Below, piece by piece: positions 30,236 to 62,401 of a stretch of 62,843 nt of DNA. Within the stretch, counting starts at the first letter, position 1; every line of letters starts with the position of its first letter. The DNA comes from a virus. Where the stretch lies: positions 64,001-126,843 of IMG/VR virus record IMGVR_UViG_3300021963_000042. One strand, given 5' to 3'. The position numbers and the translations under genes are program-made. The notes beneath the pieces were generated by a model, which saw nothing but the letters and a program-made list of their open reading frames with translations, did no database searches and had not been told where the DNA came from.

Positions 30236-30267
30236 AATCAGGTTTCCTTTTCGACTAACTTAGAGTT

Positions 30268-30296
30268 ATTATACTCCAAACCTGAATTATTGTAAA
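30268..30296 (-). promoter_or_regulatory. Sigma70-like early promoter
   Basis: TTTACA (30296-30291), 17 bp, TATAAT (30273-30268) on the minus strand, reading into the GP88-family gene. The -35 to -10 stretch is almost base-for-base the same as the promoter at 50771-50799, indicating a duplicated cassette. Confidence 0.88.
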
Positions 30297-30307
30297 GCAC
30301 TTTTTCA

Positions 30308-30356
30308 GATAACCCTACAGAGGGGAGGGTTATCCTAAGTCGTTGATTTTAAAGGG
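30308..30356 (-). repeat. Stem-loop plus conserved motif upstream of early promoter, copy 1
   Basis: A 9-bp hairpin GATAACCCT/AGGGTTATC (30308-30334) followed by CGTTGATTTTAAAGGG (30341-30356). The same arrangement recurs at 50813-50858, and the second motif at 44882-44896. It may terminate the upstream gene and serve as a movable regulatory cassette like the PeSL elements described for T4-type phages. Confidence 0.7.
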
Positions 30357-30377
30357 TTTTTTCAGAAAACCAAAGGT

Positions 30378-30623
30378 TTACTTTTTGGGGCTGGGTAGAT
30401 CGAACGATTTTCCATGAGCCATCGCCCACGCCAGACACATTTGGTCGTTTGAAGACGAATAGGCGCATCGAACTGAAACTGGGTCAATACCCTTCACGAT
30501 CGCAGATTCAATGTTAGACTTCATACTTTGGTTTTGGTGATAATTGTAAAAAGTCAAGCAACTAATTGCAGTTACGAGAACTAGTACAATACCAACAACA
30601 AACGCTACAGATTCCTTCTTCAT
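30378..30623 (-). CDS. Small membrane protein
   Basis: 81 aa from ATG 30623 (GGAGATTGAA upstream); one N-terminal membrane helix (SVAFVVGIVLVLVTAISCLT) and an outside domain with two Cys (SVRCAYSSSNDQMCLAWAMA) that could form a disulfide. Function unknown. Confidence 0.6.
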   Translation of the reverse strand: MKKESVAFVVGIVLVLVTAISCLTFYNYHQNQSMKSNIESAIVKGIDPVSVRCAYSSSNDQMCLAWAMAHGKSFDLPSPKK

Positions 30624-30634
30624 TTCAATCTCCT

Positions 30635-30826
30635 TTACCATGATCCATCATCACAAACTAATCTGACCCAAACAGGTCCAGTAGACAAATAGCACCCACG
30701 CATCTTTGGGTTTAATTCGTCTGGGTGTAAAAATTCAAATGATAGTCTCCAGTGGCATGGGTTAAGCACAAAGCCAACCCAAGCACCAGAGTATCTAATG
30801 TAATTAAGATAAGTCTTTAACTTCAT
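30635..30826 (-). CDS. Conserved small phage protein
   Basis: 63 aa: MKLKTYLNYIRYSGAWVGFV followed by LNPCHWRLSFEFLHPDELNP and a GPVWVRLV end. I recognise the pattern as a conserved small protein of T4-like phages; function unknown. It overlaps the clpP-like gene by 23 bases. Confidence 0.65.
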   Translation of the reverse strand: MKLKTYLNYIRYSGAWVGFVLNPCHWRLSFEFLHPDELNPKMRGCYLSTGPVWVRLVCDDGSW

Positions 30827-31361
30827 CGCACAGTCCTAATTTTTTCGCTTCTTGTGGGCTGAGCCACATATCTTGCGGTGGTAGTAAAATTTCACGAATC
30901 TTTGCTTCTGATAAACCAGTACACTTTTTATAGTGCGCAATCATTTTCTTAGTCGTCAAATCAAATTCTTTAACAGTAGCAAAGAGTTCGTGTTCCTTAC
31001 CAAATGCACCCCATGAATATTGGTGTGACAAGATCGATGTATTTGGCGTCAAGATTCTATGTCCCTTATCACCTGCGATAAAAATCATAAGACCAGCTGA
31101 AGCAATTTGTCCAAGACCAATTGTTCTAACTGGAACCGCAGATCCTCGCATTACATCAATCAAAGCAAATGCTGCATTCAAATCGCCACCTGGAGAGGTG
31201 ATAATCAAATTTAACATATCGGGACGTTCTTCTGCGAAGTTCGCTTCGAACATCCACTCAGTTGCTTGTTTGATAGATGTAAGGGAAATTTCCTCCATTA
31301 ACAAGAAGAACGAGTGTTTAGATTGCTCTTCCTTTAATTGCAGATTCAGTTTTGACATCAT
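30804..31361 (-). CDS. clpP: ClpP-like serine protease
   Basis: 185 aa, ClpP length. Catalytic elements are visible: Ser in GLGQIASAGLMIF, His in TSILSHQYSWG, and Asp in the PPQDMWLSPQEAKKLGLCDE segment typical of the ClpP C-terminus. The substrate-channel motif SPGGDLNAAFALID is present. Phage ClpP may form a mixed or separate protease to remodel host proteins or process phage proteins; a partner ATPase was not recognised nearby. Its start overlaps the SleB stop by one base (TAATG). Confidence 0.88.
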   Translation of the reverse strand: MMSKLNLQLKEEQSKHSFFLLMEEISLTSIKQATEWMFEANFAEERPDMLNLIITSPGGDLNAAFALIDVMRGSAVPVRTIGLGQIASAGLMIFIAGDKGHRILTPNTSILSHQYSWGAFGKEHELFATVKEFDLTTKKMIAHYKKCTGLSEAKIREILLPPQDMWLSPQEAKKLGLCDEVKDLS

Positions 31362-32599: not shown

Positions 32600-32977
32600 G
32601 TCAGTACAAGAGCCACAGGGCATCGGTTGCTAACATCGAGCAAAGACTTCACTAATTCGTGGTAGGTTATTCTGTTACGAGGAAACCTACCGAAACCCTA
32701 AGCAGCGTTTAGGCTGCTAATGCGTAGACAGAGTCGTTTGCATTTACTTTGTTTGCTTCTTCGACCGAGTTACCCCAATCCTAAAGGCTTTCGCATTGCC
32801 TAGTTGTCCACTTCTGTACTTGTTGCCCTGTCGAAACCTAGTCACCCCCATCAGAAACATACTATTCTTGATTTAATCAAGTGCCTTCGTTAGGGTCTGC
32901 AATAGTATGCTTTTGGTGGAGGTGGGGAGAATCGAACTCCCGTCCAGAACACTTTTCTAGTTGCTTCATACAACCAT
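32600..32977 (-). ncRNA. ssrA: Circularly permuted two-piece tmRNA
   Basis: Transcribed leftward in permuted order. The acceptor piece comes first and ends at 32914 with ACCA. It carries a T arm (GGGAG-TTCGATT-CTCCC) and acceptor strand CACCTCC. A 64-nt intervening segment (32850-32913) follows, with a CATACTATT/AATAGTATG stem. The coding piece begins at 32849 with GGGGGTG, which pairs over 7 bp (one G-U) with CACCTCC, followed by ACTAGGTTTCGACAGGG, the tmRNA 5' signature. A tag frame and stems AGCAGC/GCTGCT and GGTAGGTT/AACCTACC follow. The 3' end of the coding piece is approximate. tmRNA with SmpB frees stalled ribosomes; smpB was not seen here. Confidence 0.9.
32709..32741 (-). other. tmRNA proteolysis tag reading frame ANDSVYALAA
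   Basis: Ten codons from GCA (32741) to TAA (32709), giving ANDSVYALAA, which matches the proteobacterial tag form AND...YALAA (E. coli ANDENYALAA). The ALAA end is recognised by ClpXP/ClpAP. The stop lies in the loop of the AGCAGC/GCTGCT hairpin, as in normal tmRNA. Confidence 0.9.
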
Positions 32978-32983
32978 AAACTT

Positions 32984-33012
32984 ATTATACGCTAACAGTA
33001 TTTATATGTCAA
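32984..33012 (-). promoter_or_regulatory. Consensus sigma70 promoter of the tmRNA
   Basis: TTGACA (33012-33007), exactly 17 bp, TATAAT (32989-32984): a perfect consensus on the minus strand. Transcription should begin near 32977, just upstream of the acceptor piece. The -35 box overlaps the stop of the nuclease gene. Confidence 0.92.
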
Positions 33013-33662
33013 ATACCTTTTTTAATCTTGTACTCAAGTCTCAACTTTTGGAATTCTCCGATCCAACTATCTCTCTTCTCGATAAACAACAAAGGGTCTT
33101 CATTGTCAACACCCATAATAATTACAAGTCTACTAACAGGAATGCCAGTTCGTTCCTCAAAAGCAACTGCGTATGCAGAACATTGCATAAAGTATCCATG
33201 AATATCATCACGAGACTTTAATCTTGCAGATGTCTTGAAGTCAATTACAGATAGCTTACCTCTGAATTCACCAATACAGTCTACAGTTCCTGCGACTTCC
33301 AAGTGATCTGAATAGAGTGGAGTTTCAAGAGCATGAACATTATCTATTTCTCCGAGGATGGGTGATATGCTGTTAAATAATTCTCTATCGAAGATGTCAA
33401 CGTCGTATTCTTCATTGCGGAGATATGATTCGCATAATGAGTGGATTCGTGTCCCTCTCGCTGCAGCTCTACCTGAGATTCTGTTGGCTTCTTCGTTTCC
33501 AACTCTTGCTCTCCACTGTGCGATTGATTTTGCTGAGTGCAGTCCTGTGACTGTTGTGACGCTTGGATAGGCTCGACCCGATGGCGTTTGATATAATCTC
33601 GAACCATCGGTATTTGTGACACGTTCCAATTTGGGAATATCATGATGTATAAAATTTGCCAT
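33009..33662 (-). CDS. PD-(D/E)XK nuclease
   Basis: 217 aa. Core motif: EVAGTVDCIGEFRGKLSVID followed by FKTSARLKS, giving D...D-x-K of the PD-(D/E)XK fold, with an N-terminal GRAYPSVTTVTGLHSAKSIA and ARGTRIHSLCESYL typical of RecB/Cas4-like phage exonucleases. It probably processes DNA ends in replication or recombination or degrades host DNA. Its start overlaps the endolysin stop by one base. Confidence 0.82.
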   Translation of the reverse strand: MANFIHHDIPKLERVTNTDGSRLYQTPSGRAYPSVTTVTGLHSAKSIAQWRARVGNEEANRISGRAAARGTRIHSLCESYLRNEEYDVDIFDRELFNSISPILGEIDNVHALETPLYSDHLEVAGTVDCIGEFRGKLSVIDFKTSARLKSRDDIHGYFMQCSAYAVAFEERTGIPVSRLVIIMGVDNEDPLLFIEKRDSWIGEFQKLRLEYKIKKGI

Positions 33663-53194: not shown

Positions 53195-53738
53195 AGTCTT
53201 TATCAAAATAATATAAGATGATGGATGTTGCATAGCACGCAGGTTTCTTTTTGTCTTGTATCTGCAGTACTTGGTCCCACCAAATTTTAACACCCAGTTT
53301 CTTCTCGGGATCTTCTTCGTCTAATATCCATTCCCACTTTTTGATGCTCACCAGTGCACGCACTTTTGAATCCACTGGCACAGGATTCGTGAACCTGACA
53401 TAATCTAGTCCGTAATTGATAACTAACTTAACGAACCTCATGTTGACAGCTCTACCGAGCAAAGATCCAAACATAGCAAGGCTGTAATAACCATGTGCGA
53501 TACTTCTATCGAAAGGATCTTCGCCGAACCCATGAGAAACCATTCCCATTCTGGATCTTATCTCTTCATCATCAGCTGTGTGAATCCACTGAGTGTCACC
53601 AGTGGCTTCGGCAAAGTGAACGATCTTAGGTTTGTCTATTGTGAAGAAATCGCTAACCCACTTGCGTCCAGATTTCATGTGAACATCTAGATCTTCTGGT
53701 TTCTCCACCACATAAACTTTTCTTCGCTGGCTATTCAT
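53169..53738 (-). CDS. MaoC-like (R)-enoyl-CoA hydratase domain protein
   Basis: 189 aa. HFAEATGDTQWIHTADDEEI carries the catalytic Asp and His of the MaoC hot-dog fold, followed by PFDRSIAHGYYSLAMFGSLL and YGLDYVRFTNPVPVDSKV. Such enzymes hydrate trans-2-enoyl-CoA or related thioesters. Neighbouring SDR and acyl-CoA ligase genes suggest acyl chemistry. It overlaps the methyltransferase stop by four bases. Confidence 0.82.
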   Translation of the reverse strand: MNSQRRKVYVVEKPEDLDVHMKSGRKWVSDFFTIDKPKIVHFAEATGDTQWIHTADDEEIRSRMGMVSHGFGEDPFDRSIAHGYYSLAMFGSLLGRAVNMRFVKLVINYGLDYVRFTNPVPVDSKVRALVSIKKWEWILDEEDPEKKLGVKIWWDQVLQIQDKKKPACYATSIILYYFDKDYAPSKPSE

Positions 53739-55186
53739 GTTTTCTCGCAGTAGAATGTTACAAATCCAAACTTGCTGTTGATAATTTGTACGTTGCTGAA
53801 TCCAACTTCCTTCAATGTATCCAAGTACCAGTCGATTGGTAGCAGATTCATGTATCCTTGAAGTTTCTTTTCTTTCTCATAGATGTATTCATCAGTGATA
53901 CCATTCGCTCTCTTAAAATCATAGTAGAGTTCTTTTACAGTTTCACTTTGCGGAGTCTTATCACTCAGAATGAAAGTTCCATTCAACGAGAGAGAGTTGT
54001 ATATATCTTGTATGTATTGCTTACGTTCGTTAACGAAATGTAACGTCCAGTTAGCCATCACAAAATCAGGTGTTATTCCTTCTGGGAATGTTTCTGACAG
54101 CGTTACGCAGCTGGAGTAGGCAGAGTTCTCTATCATCGCCTTGCTTGATTCTACACCATACACGTTGATGAAACCAGAGTCAACGAATCGTTCGATAGTA
54201 TGACCAAGAGCAGAACCAACATCGATAATGTGTGACTCAGGGTCGTGACGTCTCTTAGCAATCTGTATACACAGATCAATCACACGATCGTAGTCAGGTA
54301 TATTCGTAGTTGCTTCATCTTGAAAACGCTTAGCTACCGAAGTGTCAAACTCCCACTTGGGTGTTTTAATGACAGTAGACTTATTAGCATGCACATACGC
54401 AGGATTTTCTCTCTGAACATTATGATGCACGTTGTATTGTAGGGATGATGTAATCTTCTTACGTGTCCTACGATAGCGAACCATATATCGCTTAGGTGCA
54501 GCATAAACCTCAGAAACATTTATCTCAATGTCATCGTTGTAAGCATCATGGCTGCTCTCAATCTTTTGAGGATAGATTCTATCTCCATGCAACTCAAAAC
54601 CATTCTCTCCCATCACAGCACGCATCGCATTATATCCAACAGCTGATGACCAACCAGCGTATGGCTTACCGATTGTATCTGAAACCATGTTGAATATTTT
54701 GAACTGAACCGTAGGTATACCTGCAGATTCATCAGCTTCGTGCGTCTCAATAATAACAAACTCTTTCGTCACACGACTCATCTGCTCAACGAAACCGATG
54801 GCATTAACATAACAGTGAATGATGCCAGAAGCAATCACGATGTCATACGTCTGGTCTGGTGTGTCTTTTAGATACTCGAGTGTTTCAGCTTGTTCAATTC
54901 TGAAGTCTGCGTCAGACCAGTGCTCAGATAAAAGTTCCTTCGACTTATCGCAGAAACTCTTTTGAATATCGATGCCTGTGTAATGCTTGGCACCATTGGC
55001 TAGCGCCCAATGACCAAACGCACCTAAGCAATGTCCGAGGTCCAGAATAGTTTTACCTTCAACTAACCACTTAGGTAGCAGTGCTTCGCATCGTCTGGTT
55101 AAAGACTCAGCGTTTACCTGTGTTGTTCCTCTGGACTTTCTAACATCGTTAGTCACAAACTCATCATATTCTTCAAAGAACATCAT
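53735..55186 (-). CDS. Two-domain SAM-dependent methyltransferase
   Basis: 483 aa. Domain 1 (about 30-190): TILDLGHCLGAFGHWALANG, GIDIQ and VIASGIIHCYVN. A linker of about 90 residues with RYMVRYRRTRKKI. Domain 2 (about 285-470): HIIDVGSALGHTIERFVDSG, VYGVESS, DFVMANWTLHFVNERKQYIQ, resembling CmoA/TrmN-type methyltransferases. Two complete SAM sites in one chain suggest successive or paired methylation. Substrate unknown. Confidence 0.8.
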   Translation of the reverse strand: MMFFEEYDEFVTNDVRKSRGTTQVNAESLTRRCEALLPKWLVEGKTILDLGHCLGAFGHWALANGAKHYTGIDIQKSFCDKSKELLSEHWSDADFRIEQAETLEYLKDTPDQTYDIVIASGIIHCYVNAIGFVEQMSRVTKEFVIIETHEADESAGIPTVQFKIFNMVSDTIGKPYAGWSSAVGYNAMRAVMGENGFELHGDRIYPQKIESSHDAYNDDIEINVSEVYAAPKRYMVRYRRTRKKITSSLQYNVHHNVQRENPAYVHANKSTVIKTPKWEFDTSVAKRFQDEATTNIPDYDRVIDLCIQIAKRRHDPESHIIDVGSALGHTIERFVDSGFINVYGVESSKAMIENSAYSSCVTLSETFPEGITPDFVMANWTLHFVNERKQYIQDIYNSLSLNGTFILSDKTPQSETVKELYYDFKRANGITDEYIYEKEKKLQGYMNLLPIDWYLDTLKEVGFSNVQIINSKFGFVTFYCEKT

Positions 55187-61131: not shown

Positions 61132-61207
61132 TGGTGCCCCAAGAGAGACTCGAACTCCCGACCTTCGCATTACTAATGCGCTGCTCTACCAACTGAGCTA
61201 TTAGGGC
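61132..61207 (-). tRNA. tRNA-Thr, anticodon AGU
   Basis: Acceptor GCCCTAA/TTGGGGC, D arm GCTCAGTTGGTAGAGC, anticodon loop TTAGTAA (AGU), T arm GGGAGTTCGAGTCTCTC, CCA encoded. The loop matches common Thr(GGU) loops except A for G at position 34, an uncommon form in bacteria. Confidence 0.85.
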
Positions 61208-61209
61208 AT

Positions 61210-61719
61210 TTAATATTCACTTATTTTAACGTCTTTCAATGCTGCTACAGTTTCATCGTAAGATGCTTCTTTAACACAAAGACTTAAAATTATTCTTTCC
61301 TGATTAGACATGTTCATAACACAATGCTCATGTTTAACATTAAGAATAGTGGGTTTGTATAGTATATATTTCACTTCATCAAGTGTATAGTACAAAGATT
61401 TGTTTTCAACATCATCATAAAGTTTGGATCTATAAAAAGCACGTCCACCTGTATCATTGATTGGAAAATTTATAGAGCACTGTCTGACGTTTTTGTCAAT
61501 GTGCCAGTCATACAATGAGTTTGGTGGATTCTTAATCCATAACGCACTTACGTCGCCGATTAAATTCTTCAGCGACCTAATAAAATTAGAATTGTTAAAC
61601 ATAGTTCCCGCACGATAATCGTTTGGTGATACGTTTAATTTATAGGTAGCATTCATCCCTTCTTTGATGTATCGTGAAGATAGATCAGGAAAATGCTCTA
61701 AGCAATAATAATTTTTCAT
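61210..61719 (-). CDS. Oxygenase-like protein inside the tRNA array
   Basis: 169 aa from ATG 61719 (MKNYYCLEHFPDLSSRYIKE); a longer frame would read tRNA-Ala. NSLYDWHIDKNVRQCSINFP has H-x-D and an Arg/Asn pattern like cupin-type oxygenases; TILNVKHEHCVMNMSNQERI supplies a second His and Arg. The protein probably has the 2OG-Fe(II) fold; the iron site is only partly clear. It is AT-rich. Confidence 0.55.
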   Translation of the reverse strand: MKNYYCLEHFPDLSSRYIKEGMNATYKLNVSPNDYRAGTMFNNSNFIRSLKNLIGDVSALWIKNPPNSLYDWHIDKNVRQCSINFPINDTGGRAFYRSKLYDDVENKSLYYTLDEVKYILYKPTILNVKHEHCVMNMSNQERIILSLCVKEASYDETVAALKDVKISEY

Positions 61720-61727
61720 TTTATCCT

Positions 61728-61802
61728 TGGTGGACCGTAAGAGAATCGAACTCTTACCTCTGACGTGCAAAGCCAGCGTGCTCCCATTATCACTAACAGC
61801 CC
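61728..61802 (-). tRNA. tRNA-Ala(UGC)
   Basis: Acceptor GGGCTGT/ACGGTCC, anticodon loop TTTGCAC (UGC), T arm AAGAGTTCGATTCTCTT, CCA encoded. Normal cloverleaf by eye. Confidence 0.88.
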
Positions 61803-61807
61803 AAGTA

Positions 61808-61882
61808 TGGCTCCACAGGCAGGGATCGAACCTACGACCAATTGATTAACAGTCAACTGCACTACCGCTGTGCTACTGTGGA
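61808..61882 (-). tRNA. tRNA-Asn(GUU)
   Basis: Acceptor TCCACAG/CTGTGGA, anticodon loop TGTTAAT (GUU), T arm GTAGGTTCGATCCCTGC, discriminator G, CCA encoded. Confidence 0.9.
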
Positions 61883-61906
61883 ATATAACTATCTATTCTA
61901 AAATTT

Positions 61907-61980
61907 TGGTGCCCCATGACAGAATCGAACTGCCATCCTCGGATTACAAAACCGATGTTCTACCATTTAACTAATGGGGC
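61907..61980 (-). tRNA. tRNA-Thr(UGU)
   Basis: Acceptor GCCCCAT/ATGGGGC, anticodon loop TTTGTAA (UGU), T arm GGCAGTTCGATTCTGTC, CCA encoded. The second Thr tRNA of the array. Confidence 0.9.
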
Positions 61981-61984
61981 GAAT

Positions 61985-62061
<77 letters not shown>

Positions 62062-62068
62062 ATAAAAC

Positions 62069-62143
62069 TGGTGGTGATGGTTGGATTCGAGCCAACGACC
62101 TGCTCCGTATGAAGGAGATGCACTACCGCTGTGCTACATCACC
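62069..62143 (-). tRNA. tRNA with CAU anticodon (Met or lysidine-type Ile)
   Basis: Acceptor GGTGATG/CATCACC, anticodon loop TTCATAC (CAU), T stem GTTGG/CCAAC with loop CTCGAAT, CCA encoded. Lacks the initiator mismatch at 1-72, so it is elongator Met or Ile(CAU); cannot be settled by eye. Confidence 0.85.
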
Positions 62144-62207
62144 ATAAAGGGTTATACTGGCAGGTGCGGTATCTGGTCTCGACTTTAGGATGTCTCAACT
62201 TGCCCAT
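62139..62207 (-). CDS. 22-residue microprotein between tRNAs
   Basis: MGKLRHPKVETRYRTCQYNP then LW, ATG 62207 with AAAGGAG five bases upstream. Its TGA lies in the first bases of tRNA-Met. Basic; no domain. The tRNA spacer is otherwise empty. Confidence 0.4.
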   Translation of the reverse strand: MGKLRHPKVETRYRTCQYNPLW

Positions 62208-62242
62208 GCTCCTTTTTCTTTCCTTACCAATACAACTTTTTA

Positions 62243-62317
62243 TGGTACCTTGTGACGGGATCGAACCGCCGACCTTCTCCTTGTAAGGGAGACACTCTAC
62301 CGCTGAGTTAACAAGGC
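62243..62317 (-). tRNA. tRNA-Val(UAC)
   Basis: Acceptor GCCTTGT/ACAAGGT, anticodon loop CTTACAA (UAC), T arm GCGGTTCGATCCCGT, CCA encoded. Confidence 0.9.
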
Positions 62318-62324
62318 AAATAAC

Positions 62325-62401
62325 TGGTGCCCACGCAGAGACTCGAACTCTGAAAATTTGGCTTCTAAGACCAACACGTATACCAATTCCGTCACATGGG
62401 C
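62325..62401 (-). tRNA. tRNA-Leu(UAG) with a short variable loop
   Basis: Acceptor GCCCATG/CGTGGGC, Leu-like D arm ACGG-AATTGGTATA-CGT, anticodon stem TTGGT/GCCAA with loop CTTAGAA (UAG), then only ATTTT before the T arm CAGAGTTCGAGTCTCTG. Bacterial Leu tRNAs normally have a long variable arm; here it is five nucleotides. Confidence 0.82.

Follow-up and report, generated by a model that had tools for sequence, protein, structure and literature searches.

We identified a complete circularly permuted (two-piece) tmRNA gene, encoding the tag ANDSVYALAA, on the minus strand at positions 32618-33006 of the window, the 62,843-nucleotide stretch of DNA analysed here, which is part of a virus record of 126,843 bases. 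From comparative sequence analysis, the gene probably produces a functional phage-encoded two-piece tmRNA that is made from its own promoter and works through host partners (probability about 0.85).

Anatomy of the tmRNA gene

ARAGORN called a permuted tmRNA over exactly this interval and with this tag. The original prediction had asked for the permuted tmRNA models of Rfam to be tried, and both RF04321 (tmRNA_permuted; 122.8 bits, E 1.7e-23, cut-off 47) and RF01850 (beta_tmRNA; 100.5 bits, E 2.2e-29, cut-off 84) matched above their cut-offs and over the full model. These matches far exceed chance. The features of the locus are as follows:

33009-33662, minus strand: PD-(D/E)XK exonuclease (phrog_298, PF12705), the conserved upstream neighbour
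33007-33012, minus strand: -35 box TTGACA (12/12 promoter match with the -10 box, spacer 17), overlapping the stop codon of the upstream exonuclease gene
32984-32989, minus strand: -10 box TATAAT, a promoter match that recurs in relatives
32618-33006, minus strand: permuted tmRNA gene as called by ARAGORN and matched by Rfam; outer ends approximate
32914-32975, minus strand: acceptor (3') piece with P2 strand, T-arm, acceptor strand and ACCA, from the Rfam alignment and T-arm/P2 covariation; 5' end inferred
32850-32913, minus strand: intervening segment, 64 nt, predicted to be removed
32618-32849, minus strand: coding (5') piece (ARAGORN, Rfam); 3' end approximate
32843-32849, minus strand: acceptor strand GGGGGTG, start of the 5' piece
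32709-32741, minus strand: tag frame ANDSVYALAA and TAA (ARAGORN)
32661-32691, minus strand: stem after the tag, GGTAGGT/ACCTACC, with strong covariation in relatives
30804-31361, minus strand: ClpP-family serine protease, 185 aa (Pfam PF00574, CLP_protease, E 8.5e-30), with catalytic triad; conserved downstream neighbour

The original prediction had described an acceptor piece upstream of a 5'-like piece with pairing 7-nt strands, a 64-nt spacer with its own stem, a 10-residue tag ending at TAA in a hairpin loop and a perfect TTGACA-17-TATAAT promoter ahead of the tmRNA, and each of these was recovered here. The acceptor piece terminates in CACCTCCACCA at 32914, and its strand CACCTCC (32924-32918) pairs with GGGGGTG (32849-32843) at 7/7 positions, including a G3-U70 wobble. 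This wobble is the signal used by alanyl-tRNA synthetase. The idea that CCA is encoded by the phage gene alone was dropped, as many bacterial copies encode CCA too. The spacer (32913-32850) folds more stably than its shuffled versions (z -3.3). The tag codons at 32741-32709 (GCA AAC GAC TCT GTC TAC GCA TTA GCA GCC TAA) open with alanine, close with hydrophobic residues and run into a stop that sits in the loop of the hairpin GCAGC-CUAAAC-GCUGC. The promoter lies at 33012-32984 on the minus strand, and most relatives have TATAAT 8-12 nt ahead of the aligned start of the acceptor piece. By homology, the precursor would be processed into two pieces, with mature RNA ends predicted near 32914 and 32849.

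The record encodes a portal, major head protein, prohead protease, scaffold, sheath and DNA polymerase (phrog_213, 138, 207, 237, 23 and 262, which we take to be T4-type families), and on these matches we regard it as a T4-like phage; together with the tmRNA models, they bear out the claim of a permuted tmRNA in such a phage. In an Rfam scan of the record, only the tmRNA and eight tRNAs reached family cut-offs. The tRNA genes, for Thr(agt), Ala, Asn, Thr(tgt), Pro, Met, Val and Leu, are clustered at window positions 61132-62401 on the minus strand. The second half of a predicted 483-aa protein at 53735-55186 (minus strand) matches a family of phage tRNA methyltransferases.

Selection on structure and tag

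We gathered at least 199 virus loci, some of them overlapping, through the neighbouring exonuclease and a 22-base tmRNA pattern. Related virus contigs carried permuted tmRNAs at well over 100 loci, and ARAGORN called one in about three quarters of the gathered loci, a share that is not a frequency because the pattern-derived loci were selected for tmRNA. The calls in L044 and L045, with a tag beginning DDRKSS, were set aside as probably false.

Purifying selection acts on both the structure and the tag of this gene. Across 37 distinct viral sequences, 97.7% of cells were paired in the RNAalifold consensus, compared with 44-59% when partners were slid by 1-3 columns, and two-sided changes occurred in 21/32 pairs compared with 4-9 in the slid controls; as the structure was predicted on the tested alignment itself, it is flattered against the slid control. 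When partners were shuffled among sequences, 86% of cells were paired (maximum 87.5%). Compensatory changes in the same sequences fell in the T-arm, P2, the acceptor stem and the stem after the tag. In addition, almost every viral copy retained G3-U70, including those in which other acceptor pairs had changed together, with the qualification that the extraction partly selects for it. In the 34 sequences with a 10-residue tag, changes in the AND and ALAA codons were almost all synonymous, while residues 4-6 varied, which indicates that the two ends of the tag are under purifying selection. Because the helices co-vary, G3-U70 is kept and the tag ends change almost only synonymously, the gene appears to be maintained as a working tmRNA with a translated tag, and not as a relic. 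Unusual tags were seen in the relatives L007, L018, L102, L159 and L058 (ANDSAYYQDLRLAA, ANDAFFGEVRLAA and ANESSFLMAA).

Lineage and relation to known two-piece tmRNAs

In a tree of 88 tmRNA sequences over 183 columns, a split with support 95/96 placed the alpha-type bacterial genes and those of Melnitz, Mosig and HTVC008M on one side and the beta-type bacterial genes and viral sequences on the other. Nearly all bacterial sequences fell outside the viral group (94/97), which also contains a single bacterial sequence on a long branch and two of the isolate phages, and the window tmRNA was placed beside those of two related virus loci (L006 and L121). With a short alignment, several long branches and a bootstrap that had not converged, inner details, including the placement of S-CAM3, are untrustworthy. 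The AU test did not reject (p-AU 0.12) a constrained topology in which the viral and beta-type bacterial genes form one clade that leaves out the isolates. On this sequence evidence, the window lineage lies on the beta-type side of the tree and not with the alpha-type Melnitz gene.

No donor was found, because strong permuted tmRNAs occurred in only about 11/250 sampled genomes of one beta order and the 22-base phage tmRNA signature in 0/399 sampled genomes of that order. A beta-type acceptor pattern had 0 matches in genome contigs in its strict form and matched 66 stretches in a looser form. The permuted tmRNAs of Rhodocyclaceae and related betaproteobacteria (RF01850) share with the window gene the layout, the acceptor strands and the AND...ALAA tag, and the RF01850 model includes a promoter at the position matching that of the window. 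They differ in forming a separate branch, in a tag that is mostly ANDERFALAA or AIAA, and in the spacer after the discriminator base, whose median is 7 nt in the betaproteobacterial genes and 78 nt in the viral ones. The phage does encode a tag of its own, as had been proposed, but ANDSVYALAA follows the usual AND...ALAA pattern and resembles the beta-type ANDERFALAA, so this part of the claim is weak.

The implied novelty of a two-piece tmRNA in a T4-like phage did not hold, since one was published in 2022 for Melnitz (PMC9004378) and others are found in several isolates, including Moby, Mosig, HTVC008M and BUCT-ZZ01. In that study, 402 of 18,146 phage genomes yielded 133 unique tmRNA structures, of which 53 were two-piece, 50 from marine or aquatic samples (PMC9004378). 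Another lists 79 bacteriophage tmRNA sequences and a merged permuted model (PMC11915505), and huge phages with both tmRNA and SmpB have been described (PMC7162821).

Melnitz, a Methylophilales phage, and the Pelagibacter phages Mosig and HTVC008M are likewise T4-like with a permuted tmRNA (PMC9004378), and ClpP aside they do not differ from the window phage in basic plan. As in the window record, no SmpB was found in Melnitz or Mosig. Unlike the window gene, their tmRNAs are alpha-type in the tree, and the tags of the three are ANDNYVPVDYALAA, GEDNFALAA and ANFNEYALAA. A glutamine riboswitch was reported in Melnitz and Mosig (PMC9004378), whereas Rfam found none in the window record. The Synechococcus phage BUCT-ZZ01, a lake isolate, has a tmRNA that groups among the viral sequences, as the window gene does, and a ClpP 56% identical to that of the window, but its acceptor stem (GGGCTGG/CCAGTCC) and tag (ANDETFSMALAA) are different. 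Among phage records, the closest DNA match to the window gene (72-81% over part of it) was the permuted tmRNA of the Stenotrophomonas phages of the Moby/Menderavirus group (about 160 kb); these phages sit elsewhere in the tree and have the acceptor GGGGATG/CATCTCC, a tag ending in RIAA and no ClpP. We also noted unannotated permuted tmRNAs in BUCT-ZZ01 (L341, 116952-117248), where the annotation places a hypothetical protein across part of the gene, and in Xanthomonas phage Rb1 (L346, 16300-16605).

A conserved ClpP neighbour and the role of the tmRNA

We consider ordinary trans-translation with host partners the most likely role of the gene. A sigma-70-type, presumably early, promoter of its own would yield one permuted precursor, from which host tRNA-processing enzymes would cut out the intervening segment to leave the acceptor and coding pieces, which the acceptor stem and P2 would keep joined. 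The RNA would then be charged with alanine by the host alanyl-tRNA synthetase through G3-U70, and with host SmpB and EF-Tu the tmRNA would enter ribosomes stalled on broken mRNAs. Appending ANDSVYALAA would mark the product for ClpXP-type proteases that recognise LAA, and the phage would benefit in that ribosomes and amino acids stay available during takeover. We infer these steps, from processing and charging through the use of host SmpB to proteolysis and the gain for the phage. No SmpB was found in the record, which may be incomplete, or in 12 related and comparison phages; with none encoded in the record, tmRNA activity would therefore rest on the host protein. The suggestion that the phage controls ribosome rescue is thus possible, in a form that depends on host SmpB.

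The tmRNA lies in a conserved gene order of phoH, GH19 endolysin, exonuclease, tmRNA, small genes, cell wall hydrolase and clpP, and clpP follows it by about 1.3 kb in the window. The ClpP triad (S88, H113, D164), aligned to solved ClpP sequences, was invariant in 13/13 aligned sequences; the single-chain predicted structure was of poor quality, with a mean pLDDT of 49.7. Of the distinct tmRNA contigs, 50 extended at least 4.5 kb downstream, and 46 of these had a close same-strand ClpP 0.9-3.1 kb downstream; all 15 long IMG/VR records with a tmRNA had a ClpP-family gene 0.7-2.3 kb downstream. ClpP is distinct from the T4-type prohead protease, for which the record has a separate gene. No phage records other than those of BUCT-ZZ01 and Sinorhizobium phage Phosso had a ClpP relative more than 50% identical. 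In Phosso (469 kb; L345), a permuted tmRNA match at 349596-350198 includes a long spacer, and there are two ClpP genes, at 30245-30790 and 115158-115679, one of which is close to the bacterial type.

Such a neighbour, with its intact triad, raises the idea of a tagging-and-degradation cassette in which the phage tag, which ends in LAA, would feed the phage ClpP, alone or with captured host ClpX or ClpA, so as to recycle amino acids or remove host proteins. This would add to trans-translation with host partners and not replace it, and we consider it unlikely, though the strongest of the alternatives. ClpP was absent from six other tmRNA-bearing isolates (Melnitz, Mosig, HTVC008M, Moby, S-CAM3 and Rb1), of which five are T4-like or similar large phages and one is a 91-kb phage. 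In BUCT-ZZ01 both genes are present but 41 kb apart, and three long records without a tmRNA carry a divergent ClpP. Furthermore, no AAA_2-type Clp ATPase was found in the possibly incomplete record, the ClpP protein also resembles ClpP-type head proteases, and conserved order among related phages can reflect shared ancestry alone. A link by presence and absence was weighed but is not put forward here: only 1/14 exonuclease contigs without a tmRNA in the locus had a close ClpP, but at least one of these contigs (L060) has a tmRNA just beyond the locus, and the tmRNA-less long records have their divergent ClpP. A functional link between tmRNA and ClpP is possible, as a hypothesis only.

The position of the tmRNA between two lysis-type genes, and the idea cited in PMC7162821 that phage tmRNA senses host state and induces lysis, would fit an RNA with a regulatory or decoy role, timing lysis by sensing stalled ribosomes or by titrating host SmpB, with tagging minor. 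We find this improbable: keeping a degradation tag would be needless in a decoy, yet purifying selection acts on the tag here, and the neighbourhood by itself says little. tmRNA genes are common attachment sites (discussed in PMC9004378). The reading of this gene as a host tmRNA that is no longer functional, brought along when a prophage excised imprecisely or through an attachment site, is highly improbable and was rejected, given a complete gene with covariation and tag selection across divergent phages, no integrase in the possibly incomplete record, and no close bacterial copy by the 22-base signature in the 399 sampled genomes of one beta order.

The lineage on the beta-type side and the conserved ClpP neighbour, neither of which we found described in the open-access literature searched, are additions to the known two-piece tmRNAs of phages. 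Taken together, our results point to a second permuted tmRNA lineage that selection maintains across a large set of T4-like phages, alongside the alpha-type lineage already described for marine phages. The conserved ClpP neighbour offers a testable idea of why phages carry a tmRNA, which may serve ribosome rescue alone or may couple tagging to phage-directed proteolysis.
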